DNA from: Owenia fusiformis
Taxonomy: Eukaryota > Annelida > Polychaeta > Sabellida > Oweniidae
DNA: 64,000 nt
Reading direction: 5' to 3'
Assembly: GCA_903813345.2 (NCBI GenBank)
Contig: CAIIXF020000004.1
Coordinates: 14,391,196 to 14,455,195 of the forward strand
Part shown: in pieces, positions 5,601 through 62,867 of the stretch
Layout: each line of letters opens with the position of its first letter
Numbering within the stretch: position 1 is the stretch's first letter
Position numbers and translations under genes: made by a program
The notes under the pieces: generated by a model
The model's database searches: none
The model's input: only the letters and a program-made list of their open reading frames with translations
What the model was told of the DNA's origin: nothing

Positions 5601-8600
5601 ACCATTAATATTATAGTATTATACAGTATTTTGTATACACTTATTGTTATTAAAAAGTCCTATTTCATCAGTGTGAGAGTTCAGATAGCAAGTAAAGCTG
5701 ACTTGATGCATACGCCAGGTCTTTACATTGTTACGGAAGAAGAACAGGGCATCAGTGATTCTATATTTGTTTTTGTATATGGTGAGTACATTCTGTACAG
5801 ATTGCAGAGGAACTTATATCTACTAACTTTCATCTCATAACATCTAAATGTGCTAAAATTATGGTTGTCATGGTTACTAGGGTGAGGGGTATGCGGAGCA
5901 TATATGCGGATCAGTTCCAGGATATCGCTTAAATGTGATAAATTGCTAAAGTATAACCATTTGAAACAGTGTTTAATATTGAATTTTCTATCAATGTTTT
6001 GTTCAATATTGTATCATTACTGCCATAGTATTCTCTTTAGTATAATGATATCATTGATACATATCAGAACCATGTAGTGTCACTGATCTTTATAAGCAAA
6101 GAAAAAATATACAAATGCTTGGAAAAAGGTCCCTGGATTAATAAAAAAGTCAATAGTGCACCTCTACAATGCACAGATTCACAAAGCAAAGAAAACAAAT
6201 CTTACAATTGAATATCTTGACATCAAACCTTTTTGTACAATGGCCCATATCCCCCCGATGTTAACAGAAATAATGTGAAATGACCAAATAATGTTACAGT
6301 ACTAATCCTTATGTTGTTTTGATACATAACTTGATGTAAAATAGTAACAGCTGGTTGAGTGCAAATATGATATGAGCAGGCAAAAGAATTATAAACACAA
6401 TCGTGACGCTGCTCCACATACCCCAAACTCCTGTTACCATAACAACCATAACTCTTTCAATTTGAAACACTATGTCATGACAGTTCAGGATAAATTGTTA
6501 TAATCCCAGTCTACAATCTTTATTAGTTTTATCTCACAACATGTAAATCTATTGAAATGAGAGTACTTGTATCTTTACTTTCCGGACACCCTGTATACTC
6601 GGAAGCGCATATTATTCAATTGATTCGCATATCCTGATTTTCTTAATTTTCTTATTTAGGAAGAAATGGATGGTCAAATTGGTCGCCTTGGTTTGAATGC
6701 CTATGTGATACTACGAGTGGTACTTTCAAACAGTTTCAGTACCGAAGATGCGATTCTATCAATTTTCCAAATGTTTGTATGGAGGATTTCGAAACAAGAT
6801 CTAAAGACTGTACACCGACAGCTGGAAAAAAGTGTCAAGGTAAAGATGTATTGGTTGATGATGATACTTTTTACGAACTTTTTTATTTTTATTGAGATTT
6901 ACACATACTAACTACCAACTACTTATAGCATGATTGAAAAATGATTCTTCATGCAAATATTTTTAGAAAAAATATCCCCCTTCTTGAGTGATAGAGTACC
7001 CCATCTATGTGATGTTTATAGTACATTCAACTGATATTCACCTTGTATCTGATTCTACAGTATATTTGCGCCGTTCTGATGACACAAAAACATTTAGGAA
7101 ATATATATAGGTTATTTCATATAGTGTATTTATTGCATCAATATTCGTAACATTAATATCTTCGGTTTTTACCCCACGGAGTAAGTTTAACCGAACATAA
7201 ACAAAACCAGTTACAACAAATGGTACCTACTATCCCACATATAATTGACTGTCTTACACAACAAATATGTAAGATGCTTCAAAACTGTATTCGACCCGAT
7301 CAAATATAAATTTGATAAGTATTTTAAACATATGCGATGCCAAGTACCGTTCGTGTTGGGTAAACATATTCATTTGTGGGGTAAGTCACGTGACTTACCG
7401 AATGATTTAACATAAACCAATGTTCACTGTTTTGATGTGGGGTAAGTCACGTGACTTCGGTCGCATGACTTGCGCCATCTATATATTCTAAGAGCTCTGG
7501 TGTGATTCTCAAATCGCGAACACGTATCTTCTATTAAGAAACGATCGCTTGTAGCCTCATGCTGCAATGATCTAATAACTTCTCAATTTCCTCTCTAATT
7601 TGTGAATATGAATCTTGTTCAAATTCTTTTTCCTCGCTTGTTTCATCCATTTTGAAATAATTTCTACGTCACTGGTCACGTGATTTAACGAATGGTTTTA
7701 TGCTACATGCAGCATGTGTCATTTATGTGGGGTAAGTCACGTGACTTACCCAACATGATTTTATGCGAAAGTACTTGTCATTAATTATGTGGGGTAAGCC
7801 ACTATATGTCCGTGCTATTTTGTACTCTATGATTGTTCGGTAAATGAACATTGTTTGGTTCTAAAGTGCATTTGTATTTGATGCGTGATCTAGATATATG
7901 TGTCAATCGTCTTTGTTCGTGTGTGTACATGGACTTAAATATGTGATATTTTATCAAACACTGAATAACATAAACCGCATATACAAGTGCATTTACCGCA
8001 TATATAGGTACATATATCAAATATAAATGTGTAAAAACAAACAAATTTGTTACGTGTTTCGAATTATTTTAATAGAGTGGAATATCAAATGGTTGTTATC
8101 AAATACAAAAGTGTGAAAATCAAATAAAGATGCAGAAAAAATTCCATAATTTCATGCTTTATTTTCAATATAAATTTTATTCCAGGGTAATATGATATTG
8201 ACCAAGGGAAATATGATATTGACCGAACGAGCGTAGCGAGTGAGTGTCAATAAAATATTTACCGAGGTCAATGTCATATTTCCCGTGGAATAAAATTCAT
8301 ATTGAAAATCAAGCATGAAATAACCTTTTTATTCCATAATTTAATTTTTGAGAATTCAAGGAAAAAGATATTTGAAGAAAATTTTTGGAAAAAATGAAAA
8401 AGTGATTCAAAATTGAAATTTTTTTAAATAAATGAAAATCTTTGAAAAATTGCAATTTTTTGAAAAAATGATAATTTCTGAATTTTTTTTTCGAAAATTG
8501 GAAAATTTGGAAAAATCTAATTTTTTGGAAAAAATGATTTGAAAAAAATAGGGACAATATGATTTTTTGAGTATATATGATTTTTTTTGACAGGGACAAT

Positions 8601-10991: not shown

Positions 10992-12723
10992 GGTATGAGT
11001 ACCGTAATCCAACACCAAATTCGAAAATTCATAACAATACTTTGCACATATGGCGTTCGTGACCAACTATAAAACGCTTACCCCCCATAGTGTTATATAT
11101 CAAAATGTACCTGTTCATATAGGGGTTCGATTGATCTACATCATATTATAGGGAGTCAGGTTACTTTTTGAGATATCAGCGTCCATTTATTGTAACTCGC
11201 GTTTGCCACCACTTCCTCAATTCTGATATGACGAGCAAACGCGTAGTAGACATGCTCACGTCGGAACTATTTGTGACATACATCGCTATTTTCGTAATTC
11301 AAATGAAAGTTGAACTCATCCTCTTCATTTTGATACCAAATAGTGGCATACTAGGTACCCTAGAAGCCAACTATGGCGTTATTTAGAACAATACCACAGG
11401 TTTTTAAATGGACTATATAGGGGTCATACCTTTTGGCGGATGGATATGGAACCTCATACCTTAATGTCTTATGACATCACACTGATTTTTGTCTCTGCAA
11501 CTTTTTTTGGCGGAAAATATCATTTTTAGTTCAAAAATGCATAAAAACGTCGAAATTGGCTGAATATGTGAAAAATTTATCCATTTAGGCTAGAAAGGGT
11601 TAATTTGCCCTACCCCAAATACGTCTAAATATGCTAGTCTAACTTTGCCACTGTGACGTCACAAATCTAACCTGACTATCTCCGAGTTTATTGAAGAAAA
11701 TGATACGTCTGACAAACAGCTTTCATTCCCTATATGGCACACCTTCTACTAAGAGTTGCATCATTGACTAAATCTAAGACAAAGGCCCTGTGTCCCGAGG
11801 ATTTTGACTGAAATTTGGCCATTTTCGCCCAAATCTAACTAAATTGCAGTTTCCCTCACACCTGTATTTTGAAATAAATATTGCTACAATGTAGCAATTT
11901 GAAAATCATACATGCTTACTGTTTCTTTCGACCTGACACGTGTATCTAGCCTGTATAAATGAAAAATTGCTACATTGTAGCAATTTTACTGAGATATGGA
12001 CCCTGAAAATCATGCAATTTTAGCAAAAAATGAAGAAATAACCTGCAATTTTGACGGAATTTCAGAGGGCTTTCTTTCATTCGTGACCCTCCACGGGCCT
12101 CTTATGACCATTCTTATACTCACAGAATGGTTGAAAGTGATTTCAAATCATTGTTTGCCCTAAGCAGAACGAAAAAATCGATTCTATCCTCAAATTCTGC
12201 TGGAATATTGGTCTCTGGCCAACTAGCAGACAATTTTAGGCCTCATATTAAGGTATGAGTACCGTAATCCAACACCAAATTCGAAAATTCATAACAATAC
12301 TTTGCACATATGGCGTTCGTGACCAACTATAAAACGCTTACCCCCCATAGTGTTATATATCAAAATGTACCTGTTCATATAGGGGTTCGATTGATCTACA
12401 TCATATTATAGGGAGTCAGGTTACTTTTTGAGATATCAGCGTCCATTTATTGTAACTCGCGTTTGCCACCACTTCCTCAATTCTGATATGACGAGCAAAC
12501 GCGTAGTAGACATGCTCACGTCGGAACTATTTGTGACATACATCGCTATTTTCGTAATTCAAATGAAAGTTGAACTCATCCTCTTCATTTTGATACCAAA
12601 TAGTGGCATACTAGGTACCCTAGAAGCCAACTATGGCGTTATTTAGAACAATACCACAGGTTTTTAAATGGACTATATAGGGGTCATACCTTTTGGCGGA
12701 TGGATATGGAACCTCATACCTTA
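10992..12723. mobile_element. Composite element: two identical 472-bp direct repeats around a 788-bp core
   Basis: Positions 10992-11463 and 12252-12723 are identical over 472 bp by direct line-by-line reading. Each repeat starts GGTATGAG and has its inverse CTCATACC three bases from the end. Outside, both ends abut TTAT. Inside, both abut TTAA. The core has no long ORF. The 72-residue ORF found twice is simply the repeat. It could be a terminal-direct-repeat element, or a pair of short inverted-repeat elements that moved as a unit. The absence of TG...CA ends argues against a typical LTR element. Identity of the repeats implies a recent origin. Confidence 0.72.
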
Positions 12724-13421: not shown

Positions 13422-13488
13422 ATGAAGTGCAAAAGGATTCAAGTTATATTTTTCATCATTCTGTGGACCAAACTCTACTTCAGCGATG
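13422..13488 (+). CDS. Copy B exon 1: start codon and signal peptide
   Basis: The exon encodes 22 residues beginning MKCKRIQVIFFIILW. A basic start followed by a hydrophobic core (VIFFIILW) is typical of a cleavable secretion signal. It ends in phase 1 after GAT G, with donor GTATTG. The exon is too short to stand out as an ORF and was placed by its signal character, the A-rich context before the ATG, and phase agreement with the sushi exon. The exact donor is less certain than the other junctions. Confidence 0.72.
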
Positions 13489-16400
13489 GTATTGTATACG
13501 TTTCTATTTACCGCTTAAGAGAGAGAGCTTTCAGCCAAACTTATATCGCAACTTTAAATTTTTAATGACGAAAACACCACTGGGGCCGTGAATTCGTACG
13601 ATCTGGATACATTTCGTCATGGTAATGATGCATTGTGGGATTAATCCAAGAATTTATCCAAAAATCGGTGAATTCGTACGATCCTGGGATTAACCTAATC
13701 TCAGGATAAATCTCAGAGGTGGATTACTTTTTGGATAACTTTTAGCCGAATTCCGATGCAAATTGGATAAATCTTGGGGATTCCCCCTCATAATCCTCGG
13801 ATCGTACGAATTCACCAAATATTTATCGGATTAGTATTCCAAGATTTATCCCAAAAGATAAAATTTATCTGGATTGAATTGGGGATCGTACGAATTCACG
13901 GCCCCTGGGGAGGAAGGCTGTTCCTCGTTTCCTAATTTAGGGAATTACTTTGTGAATATCCCGGCACTGGCAGAATTAATTTCTAAGTTGTAATCATAAT
14001 TTGAAACCGGAACTCACGAACTACATACTTGCCAAATATTTTGTTGTGATTTGAAGGATGAAAGCTCCCCAGTGCTATGCCTGACTTGTACAAGTGCAAG
14101 TTTGCGTTGCGTGATGGTGCATAGTGAGCACTATCAACACTGTTATTAGACTGCGGTAACCTTTGACTTATTTCTTAATTAAACACGTCCTCCAACCCAA
14201 AAGCCAATGGATGAAGTGCGTGCTAGCAGCTGCGTTTATTAGGTGCAACCAATACATGAAATGGTACAATAAGGAGAAACAAAATAGAATAGAGTTATTT
14301 TGCAATGCTTCTAGGTATTTTATAACGACCACGATGTCTATCAGCTTATAACAGCCGAGATGCTGAGTTGCACTTATGCAAGGAACATCCAGGTTCCATA
14401 CTCCCATTCAAAATCAACTCGATCCCTTGTTGTTAATTTTCGATGCTGAATTAACACTGTTTCAGGCATAAAGCCTATATGTCGGTCACGAAACAAAACA
14501 TCTAAATCTAACAACAAAAAATGATGATAAATTGTCATATTTTCATTACGGCGCCCGGCAGATTGAGTATTTTGTTCAAAATTTAATACAAATTTGAACA
14601 AAACACTCAATTGGCCTGGCGCCGGCCGATGGATTGGAACAAAAGTGACCCAGGCATTAATTCAATATCAGTTTTGGAATTTGCTTTTTCGAGGAGACAT
14701 AACGGTGTCATGTCTCCTCGAAAAATCAAATTCCAAACAAAATGTTCTAATTATTAAGATTTTAGAATTTCTAAACGCAGGCTTGCTACAAGCAGAATGC
14801 CTGAATACATTCAACCGAATCCTTTTATATTACTCAATATACTCATAATGATTCAAGCGAACGCTTTTCAAATCACGTTCGATTTCAATAACAGAGGACG
14901 TTGAACCAATCAAAAATAAAATAATTCAGCTCTAATTTCACACGCGCTGAATTTTAATTCTAGGTTGTTTATGCCTGTGTCACATTTGTTCCGATTCATC
15001 GGCCGGCGCCCGGCCGATTGGGTATTCTTTTCACAATTGTATATTATTCAGTTTTGAACAGAATACTCAATCGGCTGGGCGCCAGCCGATGAATCGGAGC
15101 AAATATGACCTAGGCATTATTGATTTGATCCTTTTTTAACCTTACACTTTGATTCCCAGTCGCTAGATGTCCTCCACATCGCTTGTGTTAATTGGAGCGA
15201 GTCGATTTGTCTTTCGTAACGTACGCGTTGCATAATTTGTTCTGGATTGTTAAACGATATTGTCTCGATCGATATTAATAAGAATGAAATTTGCGCTTAT
15301 AGATGTGGCATAAGATGACTTTTTGAAAATAAAAGTGGAAATATGGTGTCTTTACGTATTTTTTCTAATTCGCATAAAAAGACCCAGAATAACATTCATA
15401 ACCAGCACTTACATAGTCGTGAGACGGTAATCCATGAATCCAAGTTGCTAGATTGGTCCAACGTGGTTTATGTTAAATGGATCGAGAATACTAATGAATA
15501 AAGTCCTGTGTATGGATGGTTATACGTTAGTTTTTTTCGTAACGTTTTTGGTAAGGAATGATAAATAAATATTACAAAATTTAAATTTCTCTTAAATGTT
15601 GCTTGTTACTTGCTGATGTGATGCTGTTAATGAAATTGTGTTACAGGTGAGAGAAACGGACAGGTTGTTCGGAGATCTAGCACGACATGTGAGTCAATGA
15701 AACCAGCAATACCAAATAATGCTTTCGAGATGGCTTTCAGTATCGAAAATGCAAAGGGAACGGCGATTCAAGTAGTACTGTGTGACTTTGGCTACGAATT
15801 TGTTTTGGAAAATCGAGGGAAAAACGACCGGATGGCAGTTACAAACCTATGCAACGATGGCGTTTGGAAATATCCGCAACTCCCAAGTTGTAGATCGAGT
15901 ACGTCTTTCTTATTTTACTTTGTATGTAATGTATAATATTATTATATCACTATCTAGCTAGCGACAGTATGATTGGTCAAAACCGGGTCACATGTCGTGG
16001 GATATCTGGCGATATTCAATGGCAATGCTAATCAGATAAGACAACCGTGAGATATCTAGCGATATCCCACGCTCCCGGGAATTTTCAAAGAATTTGTTTT
16101 CGTTCAGTGTAAATAATTAAGTTCAGTGTAAGTCAAAATGGCAGACGAACCGAGTAGATTCGTAAAAATATCTGAAGATATATGTATTTCAATGTTAACC
16201 TATGACTTGATAATATTAGGGATGTTTAGCTAGACAGTGATACAATAAAACAAATATTTCACTCTATTTTCGGTGAACACCTGTAGCACTTTCACAAGGT
16301 GATATTCCACTTGCCCTTCGGGCTTCGTGGAATATCACTTGTGAAAGATGTACAGGTATTCACCTCAATAGAGTGAAATATTTGTTCAATACCACTGTCA

Positions 16401-19400
16401 AGCTTGCGACTGTATTACTGGTAAGGCCCGTAGTCAGATTTTGCCAGGTGGAGTAAACATTGAACAACTTTGGCCAAAAAATCACTTGAAATGTGCGCAG
16501 AATGGTGAAAAGTGCATGATTTTGAAAAAAAAATTGGCCAAGGGGTGGTTCGAGCCCGTAACCCCTTTTGCTGCCAGTCTCTTTGTCAAAACCTGGTTAA
16601 ATGTAATGAAATATTATGTGACACTCACTGACCAAACTTATCAGACAACCAGTTAATCATAAAAGTATCCATCACTTTAATTTTATGAGAATCTACATCC
16701 GGCCAAGTGAAATCCTACTAAATATACAACGTTTAAATATTTTAAAACAATGATCAGAACAATGTCAAGTTACATTTATGTGTAATAAAGTATAGTAGCT
16801 TGGCGGTGATCATTTCAACAAATGTTCCATTTTGTTTTGGAAAATACACGTGACATTTTCAAATATGATTTTCCACTTGGCCTTCTTGTTACTATTGCAA
16901 TGTTTTTCATTTGCTGAATACATGTACTATAAACTTGTCATCCGACATATGTTAAAAAGTTTAAAAGAGTTTAAATACACTAAATACAGACGGTATAGTC
17001 TATGGACGTTTTAGTTGTATTTCCATGGTTGCAGATGTTCATTGAAGGAATGACGACGATGTCTGTTAAGTGTATCATTCTAGACGCTTAAATGCAGCGT
17101 AATAATTTAGAATTTCGTCTAACAATGCCTAAATGCAGGAAAAGAAATACTCATATGAAGTGTTATAAATGAACAATATGTTACAGGGACAACTTGTGGA
17201 GGGAAGCGTTGGTATGAGCTTGAGCCTGGTCACTGTTATTTCGGAGGACTTGCAAGAAATTGGCTCCATAGTCGTGATTCATGCCGAAGTGTTGACGCGG
17301 AACTTGTACAGTTCGAGACCGAGCGTGAATTCAATCTTGTAAAGGAGTGGCTAGAAAAGACGTACCGGGCAGGTGGTTTCGGTATAAATTGGGACCGTGG
17401 CTGGATTTACTGGATTGGATTAACGAATAGACATGTAAGCTTTATTTTTACTGTAGAATCTGTTTAATGTCTTTATCTCCCGACTCTCGACATGTGGTGC
17501 ACTTTATATTGTTTCTCATACCTTGTCACCTACCAATATATAACCACTGGGTGTGTAGCAAATTAAGCGTGACAGTTGAACGCATGTGCTAAGGTACAAC
17601 ACGAGGATGATATAGATAGATATTTTGATATGTAAATGTATGTAACAGCATCCTAGACAGGGAACTTGGCCGTGAATTTCATAATTAACTCACAATGTAA
17701 TATACGGTATGACGCGCGAGTACATTTACCTGAGATACAATATAACGCAAATTTCACATTCCTTGTGTTGTACACGTACCGCACCATTACCGCGCGTTAT
17801 ATCGTATACTACATTTAGAGTTTGTATAGATTTAATTATGGAATTCATGGTCAATGTCACTGTCTAGAATGTTGTTTATACAGACATTACACATATAAAT
17901 ATCTAGAAACTAGACTAGATCTTTCTGGAAAAAATCTGAAAATATGAAAACATCCCTTTGCTAAAATGTCATCACCCTTGTGTTGTACAGTACACCGCGC
18001 GTTCGACTGCAACGCTTAATTTGGTACACACCCTGTGATAATGTTGCATAACTTTTTGTCTGCATAAATTTTGATTTCTCCTTCAGTACATCAAAACTAG
18101 ATTCCTTGGAGCAACAGTAAGGAAAGTTCCATGTGACTACTGTAGCTCAACTATATGCACCTTTATGAGCGTTACACGATGTGTTGTCTATTCCTTTGCA
18201 GGCACACCTAGATTCTACACAAAAAATGCCACCTACCTTTTGTTACAACTTTTGTAAATAAGTTATATGATTTTTGTTTAGAATCCGGGTCTGCCTGCAA
18301 AGGAATGGACGGCATTTAGTGCACATCTTGTAACGCTCATAAAAGTGCATCTAATTGAGTTAGTAATCTGGAACTTCCTGTTGAGTTGTTCCATGGCGCC
18401 AAATTCAAATGGAAAATTCTCAGGTCAAATGTTGTCTCAATATACCATATCCATTGGTTACAACAACTGATTAGAAACTCGAAACTCAAAAATAGTATAT
18501 ATACTTTTTAGTCTGAACACTTTTACTGGTTGAACAATAAAAACAGGCGTTTGAGTAGTTATGGCTGGACGATTCCATGGATTAATGGAGGTGACATGCA
18601 CGGCAATGACAAGAACCCTCTTGGACTGCCTCGCAATTCAGTGGCTGTGGTAGGAGCAAAGCACTACGACTTCAAATTCAGAAGACTGGCCAATGAGTAT
18701 AAGTGGTTAGGTCACTCTCAGTTTACTCACTTTATATGTGAGAAAGGTAAAGAAAACATTTATCTAAATAGAAGAATAAGTACTAAATCATTTGTTCGAT
18801 GTCAACGTGTTTAGTATCAATGGGTTCGATTTTAATGCGTTTAATACAAATATGTTGCCAAACAACTCATAGCGATCGGCTTTCAGTGGTCCATTATTCC
18901 TACATCAAAATCTTGGTTAATGACTACAGCCTAAATTCTTTACAAACATTTAGGACTGTCCTCCTGAATCAAATCCATGTCATTCTGATATCTGGGGTAG
19001 CAAAGTTCTTGATTTTAGTGTTTTTATATCTCGGTTTGTCTCTAAATTTCATCTGGCTTTCAGGAATTAATAGACAGAAATGGTCTGATCAAAACATCAT
19101 GGCCTCCCCTCACCCTCCGTCCCATTCTGCAGATACTAAATGTTATTTCTTTGAATCCAGAGAGAACATATCTAACAATCATTTATATAACTATAACATG
19201 ACGAAATGAAAAAAATGTGAAAATTACAATTTTTCCTGGCTATGACACAATTGAGAAGTTCTTGATCGTTTTGATATGAAATGTAACGAGGAAGTAATAC
19301 ATCAAGGGGCATATCTGCGTATCGTGGTTGATGTTTCTGTGAGAGTAAACGACCCATATTCATTCAAAAGAACAAATTAAATAAAAATGATTGCAAAGCC

Positions 19401-22400
19401 GCCAATATTCATCAAGAACACGTCGTACACTATGATAAAAAATTAATGGGTTTGCCTCAAAATAAGCATTCTCTAATTTTTGATCTATTGCCCTAGCTAT
19501 GGATCTAAAGTCTCTCTGCTTATAATCAATTAAATACTTGGCTTATATGTATTTTGTGTAGTTCCAAACGGTTGGAGTTACAAAGAGTTGCGTGCAAAAA
19601 GAGGCAACAGAGCACAATTCTTCCTGGAAAATCAACAAATTGCGCTTGGCCTTAAGGTGAGATATTTCATTGGATTTAGTTGCTTGCACGTTTTAGTAAC
19701 ATTTGTATTAGACTAAGTATGATTGTATAGAACCTTATGGATACATATCGTTTTATCTATTATCAATATTCACGTTCATTTCAATAAAGTCATAAAGTTT
19801 CAATTCCCAGCATTTATAGCCTATTTTGTGCACATCGGAACGCTATTACAAAGGTTAAAGCAATAATGAAAATGGGCGGAAGTTTTCTATAGCTACTACA
19901 GGGTGTCCGGAAAGTAAAGATACAAATGCTCTAATTTTAAGGGATTTACCTGTTTTGAGATAAAATTGCTCCAGAATGTAGAATGACATTATAAAAATAT
20001 ATCCAGCAACTGTCATGACTTTTAGTTTCAAAATGAAAAAGTTATGGTTGTTATGGTTACGGGAGTCGAGGGTATGTGGAGCAACATCACTATAGTGCTT
20101 TACAAATCACTTTCCTGCTCGTATAATCTTAGCACTCCACCATCTATTCCTATATTATATCAAATTATGTACCACAACAGCATAGGGATTAGTAATGTAA
20201 CATTATTTGATAATTTCATATTACTACTATCATTGAATATTCAGTATTTTTCCCATTATCTATACATTCTTGGTGTATCTTGACCGGTGATTCAAAGACC
20301 TGACAAAACCGCTGCTGTCCATCTCTCAGATTGCTGATAACATTGGCTTCAAGCTGAGTCTCATTTGGATGTTGAACTTTTTACAAATATTGCTTTCAAA
20401 TGGTCATTAAGGTAGAAGTCTAAAGAGGCTTTATCAGGTGAAAATGGGGTATTGTATAGAAAGGTTTAATGTCATGACACTCCATTGTAAGATTTGTTTT
20501 TTTGCTTTGTGAATTGGTGCATTGTGGAGATGCAATATTGACTTTCCTACTAATGGCCAGGGACCATTCTTCTAGGCACTTGTATAATACTTCTTTCATT
20601 TTACTGGTTAGTGACATAACTTAGTTCTGATATGTGCCAATGACATCATTATATAAAAGAAAACACTATGGCAGCAATAATACAATGATGAACAAAACAA
20701 AACATAGATAGAAAATACAACAAAAAACACTGTTTCAAATGGTTGTCTTTTAGCAATTTTTCACTTTTTAGCGTTGTTCTGGAACTGCTCCACATACCTC
20801 TCACATCCGTAACCATAACAACCGTAACTTGAACACATTTAGAATATATGTGATGAAAGTTTGTAGATATATTGTCATATTGTTCCTCTACAATCTGTTG
20901 TAATTTCATTTCAAAAAACCCAAGTTTCTTAAAATAAGAGTATTTGTATCTTTACTTTCCGGACACCCTGTATCTCTGCATTATTTGAGAGATTAAATAA
21001 TCTGGTTTCTGACTCTAGGATGTTCTACCTAGCTCCGACTATATAAAATATGTTTATGGACCCGCTGCCCTAAAGGAAGACTTTGCAATAGAAGAAAATG
21101 TTTTCATGGAAAGACTTCCAACAAGGAGTGAGGAGTGGGCGAAAAGAGCGACAGATCTAAGCGTTCTTAAACTTGATCCTGAAAAGAAAAAAGCATATGG
21201 TATAACGTGTCAAGGGAATGGTCACACTTTTAATCGTAAAAAGACCATTACAAAGGATTTGAAAACAGGAAAGATAACCAATGAGGTTTCCAACCCTGCA
21301 TTTGATTGCAGTTTCTCTCGCGGGTGAGTTCTGACTTTCTGCAACATTTTGTCACTTGGCTTAGCATGAATTCGTGAATGCAACTGACGGCTGTCAGCTA
21401 CCGGATTAACTTAGATAAATATATATGTGTTGCTATGTTTGAATACAGGTGAATTGCCTAAATTCGCCCTATTTTCCTCCACTTTTTCACATACAACAGA
21501 AAACACACAAACAAAATCAACTACTTATTAATAAACTAGAGTTTATGAGCAAAATAATCATGTATGATTTATTTGAAATTGGTGTCGTATTTTTTGTTTA
21601 ATGTACACCTGAAAATTTGAAGGTAACAAAAAATGAGCAAAAAAGGTCGCTGTTCACAGATTCTATTTTTAAAACTATATGACGTCACAATATGGGACGC
21701 TTTCTAGAATCCATTCTTTAAAATAGCACTTCAATCTACCTTTATCAAGACGAAAACATGTATAATAGTCAAATATTGTTTGAGTTATGAGCGTTTAAAG
21801 ACGAAAAATTATTCAAAATGTAACGGCGGATATTTGCCAGATTTTTGGGTAAAAACTCTTAGCAAAAAATAACGCGCAAGAATTAAGGAGTGTACTTGAT
21901 TTGAAACTTCATTAAAGCAGCTTTAAAATGGTATATAACTTTAATTAGAATATTATATTTTATTCCGAAGAATTAAAAATACATTCATGTGATACCCAAA
22001 AAACACAAATGCGCCACCTATTTGCGACCTGACTTACTATTTTATCGGCAACTAATTTAATAATGAATAGTACCTGTCACTATTCCATTCATATTTAAAC
22101 TAGTTGGTCATCGTGGAATAGTAGGTTTATCCGGTAGCCGACAACCGTTTTTTGCATTCGCGTATACAAGGTTAGTTTCGGCCAATTAAATGTAATTGAA
22201 AGATTGGCTGCGCAATCAAAGTTGTTGAATGATTTGAAGTGCAATACAGGATATATTGTGTTCGAGAAATTCTTCATACGAGACAAAGTCGAGTGACAAT
22301 GTAGAACATCGAGAGCACAATATATGCCTTTATTGCTCTTCAAATCATTCTATAACGGTTTTATTCTGTTAACTCAAGGTAGACACTTTTATTTTATGAA

Positions 22401-25400
22401 TTGAATCTTGATCGTACAGGTTTCATTCATGAAATAAAAGTATGTACATTTGGTTTTAGACCAAGTCGGGCTCTTTCCTAGGAATATAAAATGTAATAAG
22501 ATCACGCGATCAAAACAGAATTTCTTGGGCCCAATATATTTTTATTGCACATTTTTATTGCACTTTAAGTCATTCATGATTAATAACTTTTAATATTTCA
22601 ATTGACGAATTATCAGCCAATCAGATTTTAGTATTTCAGTACTTCTCTACACGGGCCATTTGTAAACAGATGATTAACTGTCGTTTTATACCAAATACAT
22701 CACAAAATCTTCTCAACCAATAATACGTATTTTATGTACTATTATCTAAAAAAGAGCTATATTGTCATCGGCCGGCGGACTCCACATTAATCAAATCTCG
22801 TCATCAACTCCAGGAAAACCGCTTACCTGTTCAACTTGAAATTTTATCACAGATTCAAGAGCAGACTAGTTCAAAGATCTGATTAGATTTAGGGCATGCT
22901 TAGTAAATTACTTGGCTGCCATTTTTTCCATAAATTTTTTAATCAAAATTTCAGAAAAAAGCTTATCCGGTCAACTTGAATTTTTACAAATGTAAGAGCA
23001 GATTAGTGTTAAGATCTGATAAAAGTTTGGTACAGTGACTCTACAACATGGCGGCCATCTTAAATATTTTGATAAATTGGCCATTTTGAATTTTTAAACT
23101 TGATTCAAAATGTTTTTAAACCATCTAAAAGTTCTCAAGAGTTCACATTTCATCTTATATTTGATATGCGACCTTTGGTTGACATTCGTAGATATTGGGG
23201 ATAATTTTCAAATTGTTTCTTTTTTGGATTCCAAATTTAAGTCAGCTTAATCACAAAATACCTACTGAGGTCTGAAAAAAGTATCTTTTGAGGCCGAAGC
23301 TCAAGGTCATCAGACTAGGTCACAAACTACAGGGTGGTCAAAAAAACTTGAAACCTTTACACAATTTCCCTCATATCTTTGTCATTTTGAAAAATAACTC
23401 CCTGATATTTTACACATTCATACATCATTCAATTTCCTACCAGTAGATTTTATTTCATGACCAGCAGATCGATAGTCACAATGTTACAGCACTTTAAAAA
23501 ACATTTTCCAGTGGCCACTATTGCGCTGTAGGGAAACCTACACATAACGTCCAAAATGTCCCTACCTTTGAGGACATGAGATAGAGTATATGAGAATGAC
23601 CTCTGTTGTTCAAAGTGTTGTAAAATTGTGACTATCAGTCTGTCTGGTCATGAAATATGGTAGGGTGGTAGGAAATCGGATGTTGTACAAATGTGTGAAA
23701 TATCAGTTATTTCTATAAATGACAAAGATATGAGGAAAATGCAGTGTTTCCGTTTTTACCACCCTGAAAATTCGAGACTACAAATTAATTCTTGTCATCA
23801 AAATTCCATAAAACAGCTGAGCTGAACAATTTACAAATGTTTGCAAAATTTTACAAATGTGAGAGCAGATTAGTGCCAAGATCTAATTAGGTTTTGGGCA
23901 TGCTTGGTTAATTACTTGGTGGCCATTTTGGTTTTCAAAGTGCGATATTTATCACTGTGTGTGTGTCTTATTAGAATTCTATTTTTCTTCAGTGTGACGG
24001 TTAAGATAGCAAGTAAAGCCGACTTAATTAATACACCAGGTATATACATTGTAACGGAAGAAGAACAAGGCATCAGTGATTCTGTATATGTTTTTGTTTA
24101 TGGTAAGTACAACGTCTAAACACAATGGCTAAGGCGAAACAATGTTCTGTTTATTTCCCTTTATATGTTTACGTGTATTTTTAAAATAACACAAGATAAT
24201 GTACACGAATGGCCGACACCATGAGCAAGTATAAATTTAAGGAATAACATAATTGACCCATCATGATATACCATGACATCTCATTTCTTCTCAGCCCTGA
24301 GATGTTCAGGTGAAACAAAAATATGCTATGAGTATCAGAATGTAATTGACCTAGTTAAAACATTTAATTGAGATGCGGACCTGCCTATACATTCAAAGAC
24401 CTTATGACAAGAGTCCAATCAAAGATCACTAAATAGAAATTCCATTAATGACAATTTTGGAAATTCGAAAATAAATTAAAAAACCGCTACGAATTAGCTG
24501 GCTGGATAAAAGTCAAGTGACGACACTCTGACACTTGATGGCAATTCCTCAAGATGTTTGCATAGATTTATGTATGAACGGAAAGCTCGAATTGTGTATA
24601 ATTCTGACATTTGATTGCTCTTTTAATTTTCTCACTATATAAGCAATAAATTGATCTCAAGATATATCTAAGATATGTAAAATATGTCATGAGCAATTTT
24701 TGGGGACATCACTATCATTTCGGGAAAAACCAAGAGACAATGTATCTTTGAAAAAATAACTAAAATGAATATTATATTTATTGATAGTAACTGACTTAAA
24801 GGATCCACATTACATGAATATAGTCTATATTCTCACAGCGTTTGTTACGAACCCCTCTAACACTCTCACTCTACTACATCTACCCCTTAGAAATGTATAA
24901 GATACTCTGTTTGTCTAATTGTATTGTTTAGTATATTTCTGAAACTACCTTATTAACATCTAACAGTTATCCAATAAACCATTCATAAGCAGCAGACACA
25001 TAAGAATGAATAACATAATCATTACTGAAAGGTCAAATGAGGTGCTCATGAACACAAAATACAAGGTAGAGTAGAGTGACTCTGACAAAGCAGATCACTA
25101 AATAGAATAACCAATATATGTCAGATGTGACCAGACATTAGATCACGTAAATTTGTCATGAATGTATGTTTGAAAAAGCATAGTATTTAATTAAGTAGCC
25201 GTGGATTCTTTGCATATTTTATTTCTATTCTTTTGAAATATTAGTGCTCGTAAAATATTATGAACTTCTATATACAGCAAATACAAAATCATTTGTTCAA
25301 ACTGTTATTTTAACAATAAAAAATGGAATGATAGCAAAATATTAATATTGTATATATAACTATGTGTTTCATATATAAATGTATGTGTCTAATTGAATTT

Positions 25401-28400
25401 GCTTACCCCGATCTTTTCTTTTTCTATTTAGGTAGCAACGGATGGTCAAGCTGGTCGCCTTGGTTAGAATGTATATGTGATGTTTCGAGTGGTTCCTTTA
25501 AACAGTTCAAGTTTCGAAAATGCGATACCATCAATTTTCCACAAATTTGTACGAAGCAATATGAAACAAAGTCTAAAGACTGTACACCGCCAGCTGGAGA
25601 AACGTGTCAAGGTAAGAAATAAGTGAAGTTTCGATTGCTCCAGCAAATATTTTAAAAAAGAAAATTACCCCTTTCTAAGTGATACCGTGTGTGATGTACG
25701 ATTGAATACTTTTGGGAACTATTGGAATGGACTGACGTATAGGCGATACGAGGATTGGTATCCAAAGTGTATCTGTCATGTTTTTTATCTTATAGTATAC
25801 GCTCACCGTTCTGGTGAAACACTGAATATCTAATCACAAGTGCCAAAGGGAGAGGACCAAAACTGTAAAGAAACCTAGCAAGAAAAGCAAACTCTAGGTG
25901 TAATTCTGTCATAAAAAATAGACCCTCCCAAAATCATGAAAAGAAATAATGTCTAAGCCTCCCCGCGCCTTCACCCCTCCAATCAAGAGCCAATATCCAA
26001 CTCCAGGACCAGAACTCCAAGGATCATTTCATTCATACTGAAGTCATTACTGTATTCAAAGATGATGTCTTAAATGATGCAGGATAGACGGAATCCAGAC
26101 TTGAAGTCACTATAGGCAATTCAACGGGTCGACATTCTTTCGCAATGCCGTCGACATAATCCATGAAACACAATAATTGACAAAATAAATCCTAAACATT
26201 TTGGAAAATATATAATATTCAAATATGCATGTCTTCCTTTAAGCCAAATGTAAGCCTGGTGAATGGGGACCAGACCAATGTACGCCGAGCTGTGGAAATA
26301 ATATTCAATGCATCAGAACAAGAAGCCCAGCCCCAGGCAGTGGACCCTGCAAACCCTTAGAACTTACCTCGACAATGAGCAAAAATAGGCCATGTCAACC
26401 AAGTAATAGTGAAATCTTCAAATAAAAATATTGAATTTAGAGTATCATCGGATTCAATTCATAAATGGAACTTTGTATACAGGTCACACTTTCCTTCCTT
26501 TCTTCAGTCATTGAAAGCGCCTACATAGCTGTGTTGAAGCAGTTAATTGTCGTCAAATAATGTAATTTAGGAACTTTACATTCTTAAAAATCACTCAAAC
26601 TGTGACTTGCGTACCAAAAGTTAAAGTCCCCATATAGAGTCTAAACCACTTTGACTTATATTGTAGTCTTACCAAATGTGTGATATGTGAAACTTTTTCA
26701 AAAAGTGGTTTTTGAAAGACTTTTTGTTCAAACAAATCGTGAATTTATTTAAAACTAACTTTAGAGATCACAAGTATCTTTTAGTAAGCCACGATTCATA
26801 AGAATGCATAAAGCATTCATCCTCGCATTTTTTGCCGAAAAAATTCAGAAAATGGGTTCAAAAATTAGGCAGGCAATTGAATTTGCTAACTTTATTTAAC
26901 AAAATATTGATATGTTTCTTCAGGTTCAACAGAGTAATAGGGCTTTAAAGTCAAAATTATTTTTCAAAAACTTCTCCCATAGAAATAACACAGGAAGCAA
27001 AAAATTATTTTCAAAAATGACTTTGAAGAGCTGTAACTTAAGTATTCATCAAATAAGCTAAACACTTAGTGTACGAAAAAGTTAGACAATTCAATTTTCT
27101 ATATAAAAGTATTTTTTCCTGAATCTTTTACTGAAAAGATATCCTGATTTCTGACTTGCCCCGAACCTTATATTTCCCATTGGATTACATGGGAATGACG
27201 ATTTTCAAAAAGTCATCAACTTTATCATCAATTTTCGACCTATTGTAATATAGGAGAAAAAATTTAGAAAATTTGGAGGTATTGGAAATAAAGTAAAATT
27301 ACGTTTCCATCAATATTACAAGTTATTTCATCGCCGGTTAAGTGAATTAAAATTCAAACTTATAGAGGCTTTAAAACGTAGTTCAATGGGGGAGCTAAGG
27401 TTGCCAAACTTATGGAGGGGAGTGTATCAGTGCATGTAAATGGATCAGAGAAAAATGCATTTCAAAATTTAAGTTCACATAGAAACCAATGGTACAATGA
27501 TATCTAAAACAATATATTCTTCCTTTTAACCTGGTTAGACAATCAACATTGGTTTAGCATTGAAGTTTAGCATATTTAGAAAAGATTGACATAGAAAAAT
27601 ATTTTCAATTTTTTCAAACAGTTTTTGACACCTGGGTGAGTCATAATGACATCACTAATGTTGCAAAATATTTTTGATTTGCTGAAACATTGAAGTGACC
27701 CATTAAATATGCCATTTTATTATTGAAATAGTTCAATCTTTGCATTGGTGTTAAAAATATTACCTTTTTGAAATAATATGAAGAACTTTTTGATGAATAC
27801 ATTTTTTAACTATTTTTGAAAAATGGCGGAAAATTTGAATATTTGAGAAATGAAATGCTCACATTTTTTTTTCAAAAAGCTCTAAAATAACTTTTGAAGT
27901 CATGAATAGTAAATAAATGATAAAAAATATTTTCAAACGTAGTAGTAGATATAATACGTGTTTTATCTACGAACGATGTTCTTCTTTCAAAACAGTCAAG
28001 GGACGTTTCGTGAACAAATGAGCATTGGTATCGCAAGTTTCAGACCATATGGGATTTTTAAATAGAAATCTCAAAATACTTATTCAAATGTGTGCTTCTT
28101 TTTCATATTATATTTATTGATTTTTGAAGGCTGAATAGTCTGCGTCTTTTGAGATAAAGACGTTCTTCGTGAACCGTTTCACTTTCATTTTACTAGCTTA
28201 AGTTTCACGTTTTAAAAAAAACGTGTACGTGAACGTGTATATTCATGGTCATCTGGATGATTACTTTCCCCATTATATACTAATTTACTTCTCTAATTTA
28301 TTTTGAATATATAGGAAATGTAATTTGTAATTTGCGATCGGAAAAACAAAGTTAGAGGGGAAAGTACTCGACGTGAGTCATGAAAATATACATCGTTCAC

Positions 28401-29345
28401 ATACACGTTATCTTTAAAACATGTAGCTCCCTTATCTTATAGATCAAAGACCGCCAACGAATACAGGAAGCAGTAACCCTCAATCTGCTGGAAGTAACCA
28501 ACCTGCTGGAAATAACCAACCTACTGGGAATAACCAGCCTGCTGGAAATAACCAACCTGCTGGAAATAACCAACCTACTGGAAATAACCAACCTGCTGGA
28601 AATAATCAACCTACTGAAAATAACAAACCTGCTGGAAATAACCAACCTGTTGGAAATAACAAACCTGCTGGAAACAATCCACCTGTTGTAAATAACCAAC
28701 CTGCTGGAAATAACAAGCCTGCCGGAAATGAGCAACAAGTTGGGAATAAGACCCCTGCAGCGAATGATGGAAGTAAATCAGGTATATAGAATCCTTGTGT
28801 GGTCATAAACATAACCTAATGCAGAAGACTCTTTCATTGTGGTCAAATCATAAGATTTCGATCAGTCCAAATACAAACTAAAGTTCTCCTGGGAAAGCCT
28901 TGTGTGCATTCGAGTTACCGGTAGTAAACATAAAATACAATTAAGATTCATCTTTCCTCAAAACTCGCCTAAATAGCAGGAACTATAACAAGCAATCGAC
29001 TACTTTAACAGTGACCGTTATTACTAGCTTATTGACCCCTTTTCTTATAATTTGCAAATTCTTTCAGCAATGACAGGTCCAATCATCGGAGGTGTACTTG
29101 TAGCAGTATTGGTTGTGATTTGCTGTTGTATTGTCGTTATAAGAAAGAAAATGGAAGCAGGTAAATCACAAAAACAAGCAGGTCAACCTGGTGAAATGGA
29201 TGCCCTTAATGGCTCAGATGGGAGCGATGACGACTCCGATTCCGATGCAGGAGCCCAGTCGGTTAGAGGAGGTTTCCGTGGACGAGGTCGTGGACGAGGA
29301 CGGGGGAGGGGGAGGGGGAGAGGAAGAGGGAGACGAGGATCTTAG
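13422..29345 (+). CDS. Receptor copy B: sushi / C-type lectin-like / TSP1x2 / TM / RG-tail protein, complete (11 exons)
   Basis: Joining exons 13422-13488, 15647-15898, 17187-17434, 18512-18746, 19562-19656, 21019-21323, 23993-24102, 25432-25611, 26244-26408, 28443-28781 and 29068-29345 gives 2,274 nt, or 757 residues plus a stop. Every junction is GT-AG and every phase matches. Approximate layout: signal peptide 1-22, sushi 37-104, C-type lectin-like domain 108-267, unrecognised region 268-437, TSP1-like modules 438-497 and 498-552, hexapeptide stalk 553-665, transmembrane helix about 669-692, then a cytoplasmic tail with an acidic SDxSD stretch and an RG repeat. A single-pass type I surface receptor is inferred. 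Sushi, lectin-like and TSP1 modules usually bind glycans or proteins, so a recognition or adhesion role, possibly in immunity, is plausible but not shown. No known family with this full order is recognised. The start is chosen because ATG 13422 opens a hydrophobic signal sequence followed by a usable splice donor. Confidence 0.88.
13582..13905. mobile_element. Inverted-repeat element with four GTGAATTCGTACGATC motifs
   Basis: GGGGCCGTGAATTCGTACGA at the left is mirrored by TCGTACGAATTCACGGCCCC at the right. Two further copies of the motif lie inside (about 13669 and 13800), one in each direction. It is non-coding and lies in copy B intron 1. Confidence 0.82.
14550..14665. mobile_element. GGCGCC-ended hairpin element, first copy
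   Basis: GGCGCCCGGCAGATTGAGTA pairs with the ACTCAATTGGCCTGGCGCC arm around an AT-rich centre, followed by CCGATGGATTGGAACAAA. It is related to the element at 14971-15117. Both lie in copy B intron 1. Confidence 0.68.
14674..14736. repeat. Near-perfect 63-bp hairpin
   Basis: TTGGAATTTGCTTTTTCGAG, then GAGACATAACGGTGTCATGTCTC, then CTCGAAAAATCAAATTCCAA form two arms around a tiny loop. It could be a foldback element. No function is visible. Confidence 0.7.
14971..15117. mobile_element. GGCGCC-centred foldback element, second copy
   Basis: The outer arms ATGCCTGTGTCACATTTGTT and AGCAAATATGACCTAGGCAT and the inner arms GCCCGGCCGATTGGGTATTC and GAATACTCAATCGGCTGGGC pair. It shares the CCGATGAATCGGA.CAAAT..GACC block with the first copy. 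Confidence 0.7.
15647..15898 (+). CDS. Copy B exon 2: sushi (CCP/SCR) domain
   Basis: The exon is 252 nt, with phase 1 at both ends. Four cysteines lie at predicted residues 37, 68, 91 and 104. The sushi hallmarks FGYEF after the second cysteine and DGVWKYPQLPSC at the end are visible. Sushi domains are about 60-residue beta modules with C1-C3 and C2-C4 disulphides, common in complement and adhesion proteins. A symmetric phase 1-1 exon holding one whole module is the classic form for exon shuffling. The acceptor is GTTACAG and the donor GTACGT. Confidence 0.88.
16227..16404. mobile_element. Long hairpin element, ~178 bp
   Basis: The arms AACAAATATTTCACTCTATT and AATAGAGTGAAATATTTGTT continue into CTTTCACAAGGTGATATTCCAC and its mirror around CCCTTCGGGCTTCG. 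Half of an older, diverged copy is visible at 16800-16890 and at 100-200 in copy A, so this family entered before the duplication as well as after it. Confidence 0.8.
16422..16560 (+). repeat. Dispersed repeat of the TACGGGCC / poly-C family
   Basis: It matches the reverse complement of 3180-3315 and starts AAGGCCCGTAGTCAGATTTTG. It lies in copy B intron 2. Confidence 0.6.
17187..17434 (+). CDS. Copy B exon 3: N-terminal half of the C-type lectin-like domain
   Basis: The exon encodes predicted residues 107-189. It contains the start of a long-form C-type lectin-like fold: CGGKRWYELEPGHCYF, the helix SRDSC..DAELVQFET, and the core motif WIYWIGLTNR (WIGL is the family signature). Cysteines 110 and 123 fit the extra N-terminal disulphide of long-form domains, and Cys139 is the partner expected for the final cysteine in exon 4. 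It begins in phase 1 and ends in phase 0 with donor GTAAGC. Confidence 0.9.
17545..18037. mobile_element. Inverted-repeat element with CACTGGGTGTG ends
   Basis: The left end CACTGGGTGTGTAGCAAATT followed by AAGCGTGACAGTTGAACGC is mirrored by GCGTTCGACTGCAACGCTT and AATTTGGTACACACCCTGTG. It lies in copy B between exons 3 and 4. Confidence 0.8.
18107..18392. mobile_element. Inverted-repeat element
   Basis: TTGGAGCAACAGTAAGGAAA at the left and the mirrored CTGGAACTTCCTGTTGAG at the right pair. Inner arms ATGAGCGTTACACGATGTG and CATCTTGTAACGCTCAT continue towards a centre with CCTTTGCAGGCA and TGCCTGCAAAGG. It lies immediately after the previous element in the same intron. Confidence 0.75.
18512..18746 (+). 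CDS. Copy B exon 4: C-terminal half of the C-type lectin-like domain
   Basis: The exon encodes predicted residues 190-267, from SEHFYWLNNKNR to FTHFICEK. The final FICEK is the usual lectin-like ending, with Cys265. The region that normally carries a calcium/sugar motif (EPN or QPD) and WND reads GNDKNPLGLPRNS and YKWLGHSQ instead. The internal C2-C3 cysteine pair is absent. The fold is therefore probably kept, while classical calcium-dependent sugar binding is doubtful. The exon begins in phase 0, ends in phase 1, and has donor GTAAAG. Confidence 0.9.
19562..19656 (+). CDS. Copy B exon 5: start of the unrecognised middle region
   Basis: This 95-nt exon encodes VPNGWSYKELRAKRGN then RAQFFLENQQIALGLK (residues 268-299). 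It is 95 nt in both copies, with the same phases (1 in, 0 out) and nearly the same protein, so it is a real exon. Acceptor TTTTGTGTAG, donor GTGAGA. I recognise no domain in it. Its position directly after the lectin-like domain makes it the first part of a region of about 170 residues spread over exons 5-7. Confidence 0.87.
19899..20970. mobile_element. Non-autonomous mariner-type element with TA target duplication
   Basis: CAGGGTGTCCGGAAAGTAAA at the left is mirrored by TTTACTTTCCGGACACCCTG at the right, flanked by TA on both sides. The arms extend through GATACAAATGCTCT. No transposase ORF is present in about 1.07 kb. It lies between copy B exons 5 and 6. TA duplication and CAGGGTG ends fit the Tc1/mariner superfamily. 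Confidence 0.85.
21019..21323 (+). CDS. Copy B exon 6: main part of the unrecognised middle region
   Basis: The exon encodes residues 300-400, starting DVLPSSDYIKYVYGPA. Conserved blocks shared with copy A are DYIKY.YGPAA, EEWAKRA..LSVLKLDP, YGITC, KKTITKDL.TG and NPAFDCSFS. There are two cysteines, in YGITC and FDCSF. Lysine, threonine and tyrosine content suggests a folded beta-rich extracellular domain, but this is only inference. The exon begins in phase 0 and ends in phase 2. It is intact here, unlike copy A. Confidence 0.88.
21324..22218. other. Intron of copy B after exon 6, no feature found
   Basis: AT-rich intron sequence. I see no exon, RNA gene or clear repeat between the donor of exon 6 and the foldback element at 22219. 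Confidence 0.45.
22219..22357. mobile_element. MITE with TTGAATGATTTGAAGTGCAA ends, copy 1
   Basis: TTGAATGATTTGAAGTGCAA and AGGATATATTGTG at the left are mirrored by CACAATATATGCC and CTCTTCAAATCATTC at the right. A second copy of the family is at 44638-44776. Confidence 0.78.
22790..23960 (+). repeat. Degenerate tandem repeat interrupted by an inserted element
   Basis: Units containing TTGAATTTTTACAAATGTAA (or similar), GAGCAGATTAGTG.TAAGATCT and GGGCATGCTT.GT.AATTAC recur at about 22830, 22970 and 23850. The last unit is separated from the others by the element at 23330-23766 and ends just before exon 7 of copy B. Confidence 0.55.
23330..23766. mobile_element. Inverted-repeat element with CAGGGTGG ends
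   Basis: CAGGGTGGTCAAAAAAACTT at the left and TTTTTACCACCCTG at the right are inverted. Inside, TTCCCTCATATCTTTGTCATT is mirrored by AATGACAAAGATATGAGGAAA and ATCGATAGTCACAATGTTAC is mirrored by AAAATTGTGACTATCAG. It is a non-coding foldback element. Confidence 0.78.
23993..24102 (+). CDS. Copy B exon 7: end of the unrecognised middle region
   Basis: The exon encodes residues 401-437, GVTVKIASKADLINTPGIYI followed by VTEEEQGISDSVYVFVY. Its alternating hydrophobic residues and final VYVFVY look like beta strands ending a domain. Copy A has a 110-nt exon with the same phases (2 in, 1 out) and almost the same sequence. The donor is GTAAGTAC. Confidence 0.88.
24103..25431. other. Intron of copy B between exons 7 and 8
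   Basis: AT-rich sequence without an exon, RNA gene or repeat that I can support. Confidence 0.45.
25432..25611 (+). CDS. Copy B exon 8: first thrombospondin type 1-like module
   Basis: The 180-nt exon has phase 1 at both ends. It encodes residues 438-497 with the TSP1 tryptophan ladder WSSWSPW, then ECICD, KFRKCDT and cysteines through DCTPPAGETC. TSP1 modules bind glycosaminoglycans or proteins and are often C-mannosylated on WxxW. The usual CSVTCG is replaced by CICD, so this is a variant module. As a whole-module symmetric exon it could be duplicated or shuffled without breaking frame. Confidence 0.88.
26244..26408 (+). CDS. Copy B exon 9: second, shorter TSP1-like module
   Basis: The 165-nt exon is phase 1-1 and encodes residues 498-552: CKPGEWGPDQCTPSCG, then QCIRTRSPAPGSGPC and PCQPSN. 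The pattern W..C...CG followed by R.R matches the start of a TSP1 repeat. The second half is short, so it may be a truncated or divergent module. The copy B donor reads GTGAAA, weaker than GTAAAG in copy A at the same codon. Confidence 0.82.
26850..27430 (+). mobile_element. Truncated copy of the foldback family found at 62868-63728
   Basis: Sequence from GGCAGGCAATTGAATTTGCT through CAATGGGGGAGCTAAGGTTG to ATGGAGGGGAGTG follows the right part of the element at 62868-63728 in the same direction. The left inverted arm is absent. It lies in the copy B intron between exons 9 and 10. Confidence 0.75.
27431..28442. other. Remainder of copy B intron 9
   Basis: AT-rich intron DNA with a few short self-complementary stretches (for example around 28200-28230). 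No exon is seen. Confidence 0.4.
28443..28781 (+). CDS. Copy B exon 10: Asn/Gln/Pro-rich hexapeptide repeat stalk
   Basis: The 339-nt exon is phase 1-1 and encodes residues 553-665. About fifteen copies of a hexapeptide of the type AGNNQP (variants TGNNQP, VGNNKP, TENNKP) run from 28487 to about 28758, coded by an 18-bp tandem repeat. The composition predicts an extended, disordered spacer that lifts the binding modules off the membrane. Copy A has the same exon with 231 nt and more glutamate variants, so repeat number changes between copies in whole codons. Confidence 0.88.
29068..29345 (+). CDS. Copy B exon 11: transmembrane helix, acidic stretch and RG-repeat tail
   Basis: The final exon encodes residues 666-757. 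The helix MTGPIIGGVLVAVLVVICCC is followed by IVVIRKKME, placing the tail inside the cell by the positive-inside rule. The CCC at the inner membrane face could be palmitoylated. The tail carries SDGSDDDSDSD, which fits casein kinase 2 sites, then nine or so GR pairs (29276-29342) ending RRGS. Such RG repeats are known from RNA-binding nuclear proteins and are arginine-methyltransferase substrates. In a receptor tail they are unusual. The stop TAG is at 29343-29345. Confidence 0.9.
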
Positions 29346-61519: not shown

Positions 61520-62860
61520 ACATGTTTTGAGATAAATTAGGACCTACAATGTACCTTATACTTATGGAGTAGCGATTCACTTACCAAACGCCACATTGCG
61601 CTCTGGTGGTTAAGGGAAGGAGAAAAAACGACGTTTTATACAGAAAACCAAATCATTAAGCAGACAAGAAGTCAGACTTTTTCAAAATCATGCAGCTTAA
61701 TTCATCATTTTGGGCACATTCTGAGTGACTTTAGACCAAAATTGTCAAATTTGAGCCCCTCCCCTGATCATCATTGTTAACAATTGAACCCCTTTGACAA
61801 AAACGGTCCGGATTTAGTTAAGTTTTTTAAGGAAATTTTCAAAGATCTGTCCAATAGTCCCCCTGGAATGCATCAGTTTCCCATTGCGAAGACTCGTATA
61901 ATTAATGTTATGATACTCTCGAATAAAAAAAAGTACAGTTTCTTGAAAAAGCCCATCTTTTAATATTGAGTTATTTGATTCAATTTCGATCGTTCTCTTC
62001 TAATAATACTAAACTGGAAGTTGAAATTGATATCAAGGGGCCAAAGGACTGACGTAAATTATCTACTCATAGAATTGGCAATCCGAAAGTATTGTTAGAT
62101 ATTGCAATTTATGGCCAGATTTTTTTGCAAACGGGACTCTTGGGTCCAGTTTACTTCAGCCACTTATCTTTGTGTTTTTGTCATTCGTAACCTATTTTGT
62201 TTAAGAGCTTACTTGTAATTAGAAATGAAATGAGCTCGGTACTTAGTCTATTGGATTTTGCAATAACAATATGAATTCATGTCTTGACTCGACACTTTCT
62301 ATACTTTCTACTTATATTTCAATTAATTCGTGATGGTGTGGAATACCGAACGGATACATGATATGTGTACATATTAGAAAGGGGTGTAAAGTGCGAAATG
62401 TAAACTTCGCATTAAAAGTTAAGAAGCAGTTATATCTCATTTATCAACTAACGCTACTAACTGAGAAACTACCTATAGGTGAAAAATAGCTTAGCCAATT
62501 CTGATTTATCAGAGTCTCTCTTTATCTTAAGATTGTAAGAAACTGATTTATCATGAGAAAAACATGTTCCAAGCCAGCGCATTCCCCATGGTCAATTAAT
62601 CCCTCTAGTTAATTTAATTGACTGCATTTTTGGCATTATCCCACATTCTCTCTATTCCAAAGGAGAGTAGAGATAGTGGGTCCTTCAATGAGCTTCGCCT
62701 TATATAATAAACAGCTTTATGTTAAGAGCAATAACTAAGTGTTAACATTCCCCATGGTCAATTTATCTCTTGAATTAATTCAATCTGTGCATGCATTTTT
62801 GACTAATAGGAAACCCTTTCTGCAGTCACTATCCCACAGTCTTGCTATTCCAAGGTACAC
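61520..62860. other. Intergenic with duplicated fragments
   Basis: 62035-62245 is a diverged copy of 39400-39665. CATTCCCCATGGTCAATTAA near 62580 recurs as CATTCCCCATGGTCAATTTA near 62746. No gene is seen. Confidence 0.45.
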
Positions 62861-62867
62861 TCCCCTC

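Follow-up and report, generated by a model that had tools for sequence, protein, structure and literature searches.

The locus at positions 13,422 to 29,345 of the window, which is the whole 64,000-nucleotide stretch of DNA analysed (contig C4, 14391196-14455195), raises the question of what kind of protein its eleven exons encode and whether that protein belongs to a new kind of system. A sequence-only reading had described a receptor composed of a sushi module, a lectin-like module, a region of unknown type, two TSP1 modules, a repeat stalk, a transmembrane segment and an RG-repeat tail, and had offered it as an undescribed system. The genome searched comprises 525 contigs (498,259,871 bases) and is probably that of an annelid, as it has three matches to the erythrocruorin linker family, which is specific to annelids; a search for mitochondrial COX1 gave no match. 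We consider it about an even chance that the product of the gene is a type I recognition or adhesion receptor of the cell surface, in which an ectodomain of the type found in a paralog on contig C1 is carried on a membrane chassis of the type found in two mini-genes on contig C8.

All eleven exons proposed earlier were found on the plus strand. They join in frame with consistent phases, the exit phases of exons 1-10 being 1, 1, 0, 1, 0, 2, 1, 1, 1 and 1. The resulting coding sequence of 2,268 nt gives 755 amino acids, which corrects the earlier figure of 757. Exon borders were chosen by eye with this gene (copy B) and two further copies (Z and A) set side by side, and GT-AG ends are present in 30 of the 30 introns of the three copies. 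In copy B, ATTAAA and AATAAA occur 31 and 69 bases past the stop; across the three copies, AATAAA or ATTAAA lies 9-74 bases past the stops. Copy B is judged to be a real gene with the predicted 11-exon chain, as exon order and phases recur in all three copies and the frame is under selection (see below).

Copies Z and A are located upstream of copy B, and translated comparison shows that exon order and phases are identical in all three. The tandem arrangement described earlier is therefore correct, with the amendment that the gene is triplicated. In window coordinates, copy Z spans -16026 to -6080; its frame is open throughout and encodes 777 amino acids. Copy A extends from -4545 to 10616, so that its exons 1 and 2 are upstream of the window, and contains 737 codons ahead of a final TGA, an in-frame TAA among them. 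This premature TAA is in exon 6 (5114-5116), while the final TGA in exon 11 (10614-10616) falls 12 codons short of the end shared by copies B and Z. Since exons 5-7 together are bounded by phase 1 on both sides, skipping them in copy A would keep the frame around the exon 6 stop.

Selection on the three copies is purifying overall. Computed outside the stalk, dN/dS is 0.40 for B-Z (637 codons), 0.41 for B-A (638 codons) and 0.50 for Z-A (638 codons), at dS values of 0.48, 0.45 and 0.37 respectively. None of these three pairs has a whole-gene dN/dS above 1. A value above 1 was obtained in one exon of one pair (exon 8, Z-A, 1.32), where it is based on 2.5 synonymous changes. Per-exon dS spans 0.07 to 1.01 on small counts, a range that suggests mosaic exchange between the copies.

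Six modules lie between the signal and membrane exons: a four-cysteine module, a lectin-like module, a middle region (module X), two TSP1-like modules and a stalk. Each is bounded by phase-1 introns on both sides in all three copies. Such phase-1 borders are typical of extracellular modules spread by exon shuffling.

By profile comparison, the lectin-like module is the sole well-supported module of the ectodomain. Its first half is encoded by exon 3 (17187-17434, phase 1-0; 2436-2683 in copy A) and its second half by exon 4 (18512-18746, phase 0-1; 3446-3680 in copy A). Pfam Lectin_C (PF00059) scores 22.5 bits in copy B, against a cut-off of 22.6, as well as 25.6 in copy Z and 33.1 in the C1 paralog. 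The combined profile of exons 3 and 4 matches C-type lectins in the PDB with an E-value of 8.6e-7, and this part of the earlier description is upheld. Calcium-dependent sugar-binding C-type lectins carry an EPN or QPD motif plus a WND motif. These motifs are absent from the lectin-like domain in all three C4 copies and in the C1 paralog.

The sushi assignment of exon 2 (15647-15898, phase 1-1) has less support than first supposed. In an alignment of the module, four cysteines in a CD..Y and C..G.W.Y...P.C pattern are present in four of four rows, which is consistent with a possible CCP/sushi module. Profile searches did not detect such a module: sushi/CCP (PF00084) gave no Pfam match at E<=10 in copy B, copy Z or the C1 paralog, with HMMER filters that discard most matches above E ~0.1, and no CCP chain was among the two PDB matches of exon 2. 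At other loci of the genome the same Pfam model has at least 150 matches, with 150 of its 979 candidates scored. Compared with this genome's own CCPs (a set of 25 rows, of which L060 and L061 are on the wrong strand), exon 2 reached 5.9% in hhalign, and 40 shuffles of it reached a maximum of 3.6%. The signal is unclear, given that shuffled TSP1-like modules reached 12.0 and 13.1% against the same set, above the value of exon 2. A fold model of the exon was too poor for use (pLDDT 39.9). Elsewhere in the genome, C1:21970151-21978388 contains a dense sushi array, in which a single 2766-codon open frame takes in about 40 of the CCP matches listed.

The two proposed TSP1 modules differ in their support. 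Exon 8 (25432-25611, phase 1-1; 6660-6839 in copy A) encodes the first, which has no match to Pfam PF00090 in the C4 gene. In the PDB, it matches thrombospondin-1 with an E-value of 0.0018 over the first half of the module; 12 of the 16 chains listed are thrombospondin-1 or properdin, all except the best at E >=0.05. Its hhalign value of 30.4% compares with a maximum of 3.0% among 40 shuffles. Taken together, these results point weakly to a TSP1-like module. The second, encoded by exon 9 (26244-26402, phase 1-1; 8715-8873 in copy A), has no Pfam or PDB match of its own in the C4 copies, and its hhalign value is 14.0% compared with a maximum of 11.2% among 40 shuffles. It is assigned through the C1 paralog, where the exon in the same fifth-module place matches Pfam TSP_1 (E 3.8e-7). 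That C1 exon is missed by the profile of C4 exon 9.

The middle region is one module spread over three exons. Exon 5 (19562-19656, phase 1-0; 4489-4583 in copy A) contains the start of module X, exon 6 (21019-21323, phase 0-2; 4898-5223 in copy A) its centre, and exon 7 (23993-24102, phase 2-1; 5672-5781 in copy A) its end. The C1 counterpart of exon 5 was picked by place, phase and alignment. Neither Pfam nor the PDB yielded a useful sequence match for module X, with Pfam scans covering copy B, copy Z and the C1 paralog, in agreement with its earlier description as a region of unknown type. A fold model of the central exon is poor (pLDDT 49.0). The best of its 442 Foldseek matches has an E-value of 0.25, and many of the best 50 are beta-propeller enzymes. 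Two candidate identities were rejected. Scoring of all 27 candidate places for ependymin (PF00811) left 15 matches in the genome, and this locus is not among them. An Ig-type fold was dismissed on weak ground, namely that exon 6 has two cysteines of which the C1 paralog lacks one.

A dispersed repeat occupies 23328-23766 in intron 6 of copy B. It has at least 155 matches of 84-88% identity on several contigs (40 scored of 1302 first-look candidates), and parts of it match in both orientations, as an inverted-repeat element would.

The ends of the protein suggest the layout of a type I membrane protein, as first proposed, with a signal-like N end and, in all three copies, one transmembrane segment followed by basic residues. 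Exon 1 (13422-13488, exit phase 1) encodes the start codon and a signal-peptide-like segment; its hydrophobic core of 10 residues is under the 19-residue threshold applied to the transmembrane segment, and it is classed as signal-like by this hydrophobicity. Exon 10 (28443-28781, phase 1-1; 9670-9900 in copy A) encodes an Asn/Pro-rich stalk of 77-138 residues across the copies, built from an 18-bp (6-residue) repeat present in 13.8 copies in B and 9.1 in A. Exon 11 (29068-29345; 10315-10616 in copy A) encodes a single strongly hydrophobic segment close to the C terminus, basic residues, an acidic stretch rich in serine and aspartate, 7-11 RG dipeptides and the stop. The repeat stalk, membrane segment and RG tail named earlier are thus all present.

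No known signalling motif was recognised in the tail, and ITAM and ITIM motifs are absent. There is no tyrosine in the tails of copies B and Z, and the one in copy A is outside any motif. Since the tails of the intact copies are tyrosine-free, direct signalling of the ITAM/ITIM type is unlikely. RG is encoded with five Arg codons in copy B and three in copy Z, with three Gly codons in each, and this mixed usage makes selection at the protein level plausible. The RG tail of copy A is partly a 12-bp tandem repeat. Nucleolar proteins have GAR tails that resemble the RG repeats seen here. A search of the open-access literature for such a tail yielded nothing relevant by title and abstract.

These features bear on the reading that the gene is a membrane receptor chimera of doubtful function, with copy A decaying and the RG tail a product of drift in 12-bp repeats. 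The two premature stops of copy A (exons 6 and 11) would fit, as would the tandem-repeat DNA in the stalk (A and B) and in the RG tail (A). However, copies B and Z have no interrupting stop and show a dN/dS of 0.40 at a dS of 0.48, and their RG dipeptides are not written in a single repeated codon pair. We regard this reading as improbable.

The combination has counterparts in two other kinds of gene in the same genome. A paralog at C1:57119013-57125620 repeats the five-module layout and the exon phases of the C4 genes, including a TSP1 module in the fifth place. Its identity to copy B is 33% in the four-cysteine module, 35% in the lectin-like module, 28% in the X-like module and 35% in the first TSP1-like module. 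Of the C4 ectodomain exons, 2, 3, 4, 7 and 8 have profiles that match it; the profiles of 5, 6 and 9 miss it. It differs from the C4 genes in its signal exon, which was proposed by eye, and in that its model has no stalk or transmembrane exon and ends after the second TSP1. The predicted C1 protein of 617 aa is probably secreted. Downstream of this paralog, at C1:57126900-57134600 (20.9-28.6 kb of the C1 block), are exons that by eye resemble a gene of PLAA type with WD40, PFU and PUL parts.

The C8 mini-genes (C8:37119903-37121446 and C8:37124003-37126908) encode 136 and 224 residues and consist of a signal exon, a stalk and a membrane exon only. Ectodomain modules were not found in them with the C4 exon profiles. 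In common with the C4 genes they have the signal exon, which is near-identical to exon 1 of copy B, the stalk, the membrane exon and intron and 5' flank DNA, but are without the ectodomain and the RG tail. At the DNA level, the shared sequence comprises the 5' flank and exon 1 with the initial 20-70 bases of intron 1, as well as exon 10 and portions of intron 10 and of exon 11. C8 DNA also matches the end of intron 9 in copies B and A (27954-28077 in B), a match that may be a repeat. A second repeat is present in intron 9 of copy B (26877-27430), in two stretches of opposite orientation at 62855-63734 of the window and upstream of the C1 paralog (11636-12167 of the C1 block).

Because exons 2-9 correspond to the C1-type cassette and the remaining parts to a C8-type chassis, the C4 receptor combines both. 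Phase-1 introns would have allowed the five-module ectodomain to be joined to the signal-stalk-membrane chassis. A match between an intron of one mini-gene (C8b) and intron 6 of copy B was considered as a deletion trace and rejected; the matching sequence is the dispersed repeat described above and is therefore uninformative on the direction of assembly. The family found comprises three C4, one C1 and two C8 loci, in a search that more distant members could escape. One genome contains the receptor together with both kinds of gene whose parts it joins, and the module edges are in phase 1. A bolder reading goes further: an annelid-line receptor family arose when a secreted five-module ectodomain was inserted via phase-1 introns into a signal-stalk-membrane gene, and the tail of acidic serine and RG sequence itself signals through methylation of its arginines or by binding nucleic acid, perhaps once freed from the membrane. 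We think this full scenario improbable.

A secreted form is also possible for the C4 genes. When exon 9 is read past its donor, seven residues and a stop follow in all three copies (SNSEIFK, SNCPVLN and SNGKVFK), an arrangement that would allow a product like the predicted C1 protein. Similarity between B and Z past this donor is 72 and 82% over about 80 bases. AATAAA is located at +19 past the donor in copies B and A; copy Z has none in the first 600 bases. It could be argued that the secreted ectodomain is the main product, with the transcript ending past exon 9 and the stalk and membrane exons forming either another end of the transcript or a unit of their own. Besides the short extension and the AATAAA, the C1 paralog likewise ends after its second TSP1, and chassis genes of C8 type exist on their own. 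Nevertheless, all three C4 copies place the ectodomain exons between signal and stalk exons of chassis type with matching phases. Similarity past the donor is found at other exons in some pairs (e.g. exon 4 in Z-A, 70, 72 and 68%), and chance alone is expected to give short in-frame extensions. Secretion as the main fate is hence unlikely.

Under the favored reading of a membrane-anchored recognition or adhesion receptor, the signal peptide would be removed and the N-terminal modules exposed at the cell surface. The four-cysteine sushi-like module, the lectin-like module free of a calcium site, module X and the two TSP1-like modules may then bind a protein or glycan ligand. The variable stalk would space these modules from the membrane, in which the single transmembrane segment would act as the anchor. 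The tail might bind partners through phospho-serine or arginine-methylated RG, or provide anchoring only.

Two more specific roles can be proposed, each of them tentative. In the first, the protein is an immune pattern-recognition receptor proper, whose tandem copies diversify for microbial surfaces through mosaic exchange of exons. The tandem triplication and the spread in per-exon synonymous divergence, as would follow from gene conversion, are in line with this role, as are the combinations of lectin domains with sushi and other modules that are reported among invertebrate immune genes (PMC10140915, PMC11797021). Against it, there are just three C4 copies, one of them with stops, and the whole-gene dN/dS is 0.40-0.50, with a single exon of one pair (exon 8, Z-A) above 1. 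Given the small family and purifying selection overall, an immune role is no more than a possibility. Should the protein turn out to be a recognition receptor, annelid immunity or adhesion would gain a lineage-specific family.

In the second, which is likewise doubtful in this specific form, the protein serves cell-cell or cell-matrix adhesion in development or in epithelia, and its stalk and TSP1-like modules are mechanical. The TSP1-like modules, the long stalk and the tail without a tyrosine motif agree with this role, and so do the few copies and purifying selection. However, the lectin-like N-terminal part points to specific binding.

With respect to novelty, no described family with this module order was found in the open-access literature, as the sequence-only reading had supposed. 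Several known groups are nonetheless similar in part. Group XIV C-type lectins (thrombomodulin, CD93) are type I proteins with a C-type lectin-like domain first, followed by EGF repeats and a stalk. The C4 receptor resembles them in its type I layout, its C-type lectin-like domain and its stalk before the membrane; to our knowledge, they have no TSP1 modules and no RG tail. Selectins and Drosophila Furrowed are membrane proteins in which a C-type lectin domain adjoins several sushi modules, with EGF in selectins. The C4 receptor likewise combines a C-type lectin-like domain with a possibly sushi-related module in a membrane protein, and we know of no TSP1, module X or RG tail in selectins or Furrowed. 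Unlike group XIV lectins and selectins, it has no EGF module after the lectin domain, and the Pfam scan of copy B found no EGF family.

Invertebrate genomes contain many lineage-specific combinations of lectin and sushi modules, and for this reason we rate the C4 architecture as familiar in kind. The C4 genes look like a lineage-specific family of recognition or adhesion receptors and not a new kind of system; the earlier description as an undescribed system was overstated for what resembles a small exon-shuffled receptor family. In the accessible parts of the literature on invertebrate multidomain C-type lectins, lectin, sushi and other modules are likewise combined in lineage-specific architectures, and the order CCP-CTL-X-TSP1-TSP1-TM is not named there (PMC10140915, PMC11797021). 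For a surface receptor, both module X and a cytoplasmic tail of RG repeats are out of the ordinary.

Further along the window, a purine-rich array of AAGGAAGG type occupies 42245-44420, with 272 units of 8 bp at 66% matches. It coincides with a strong GC skew at 40-44 kb and with long low-complexity open reading frames, for example one of 801 aa on the minus strand.
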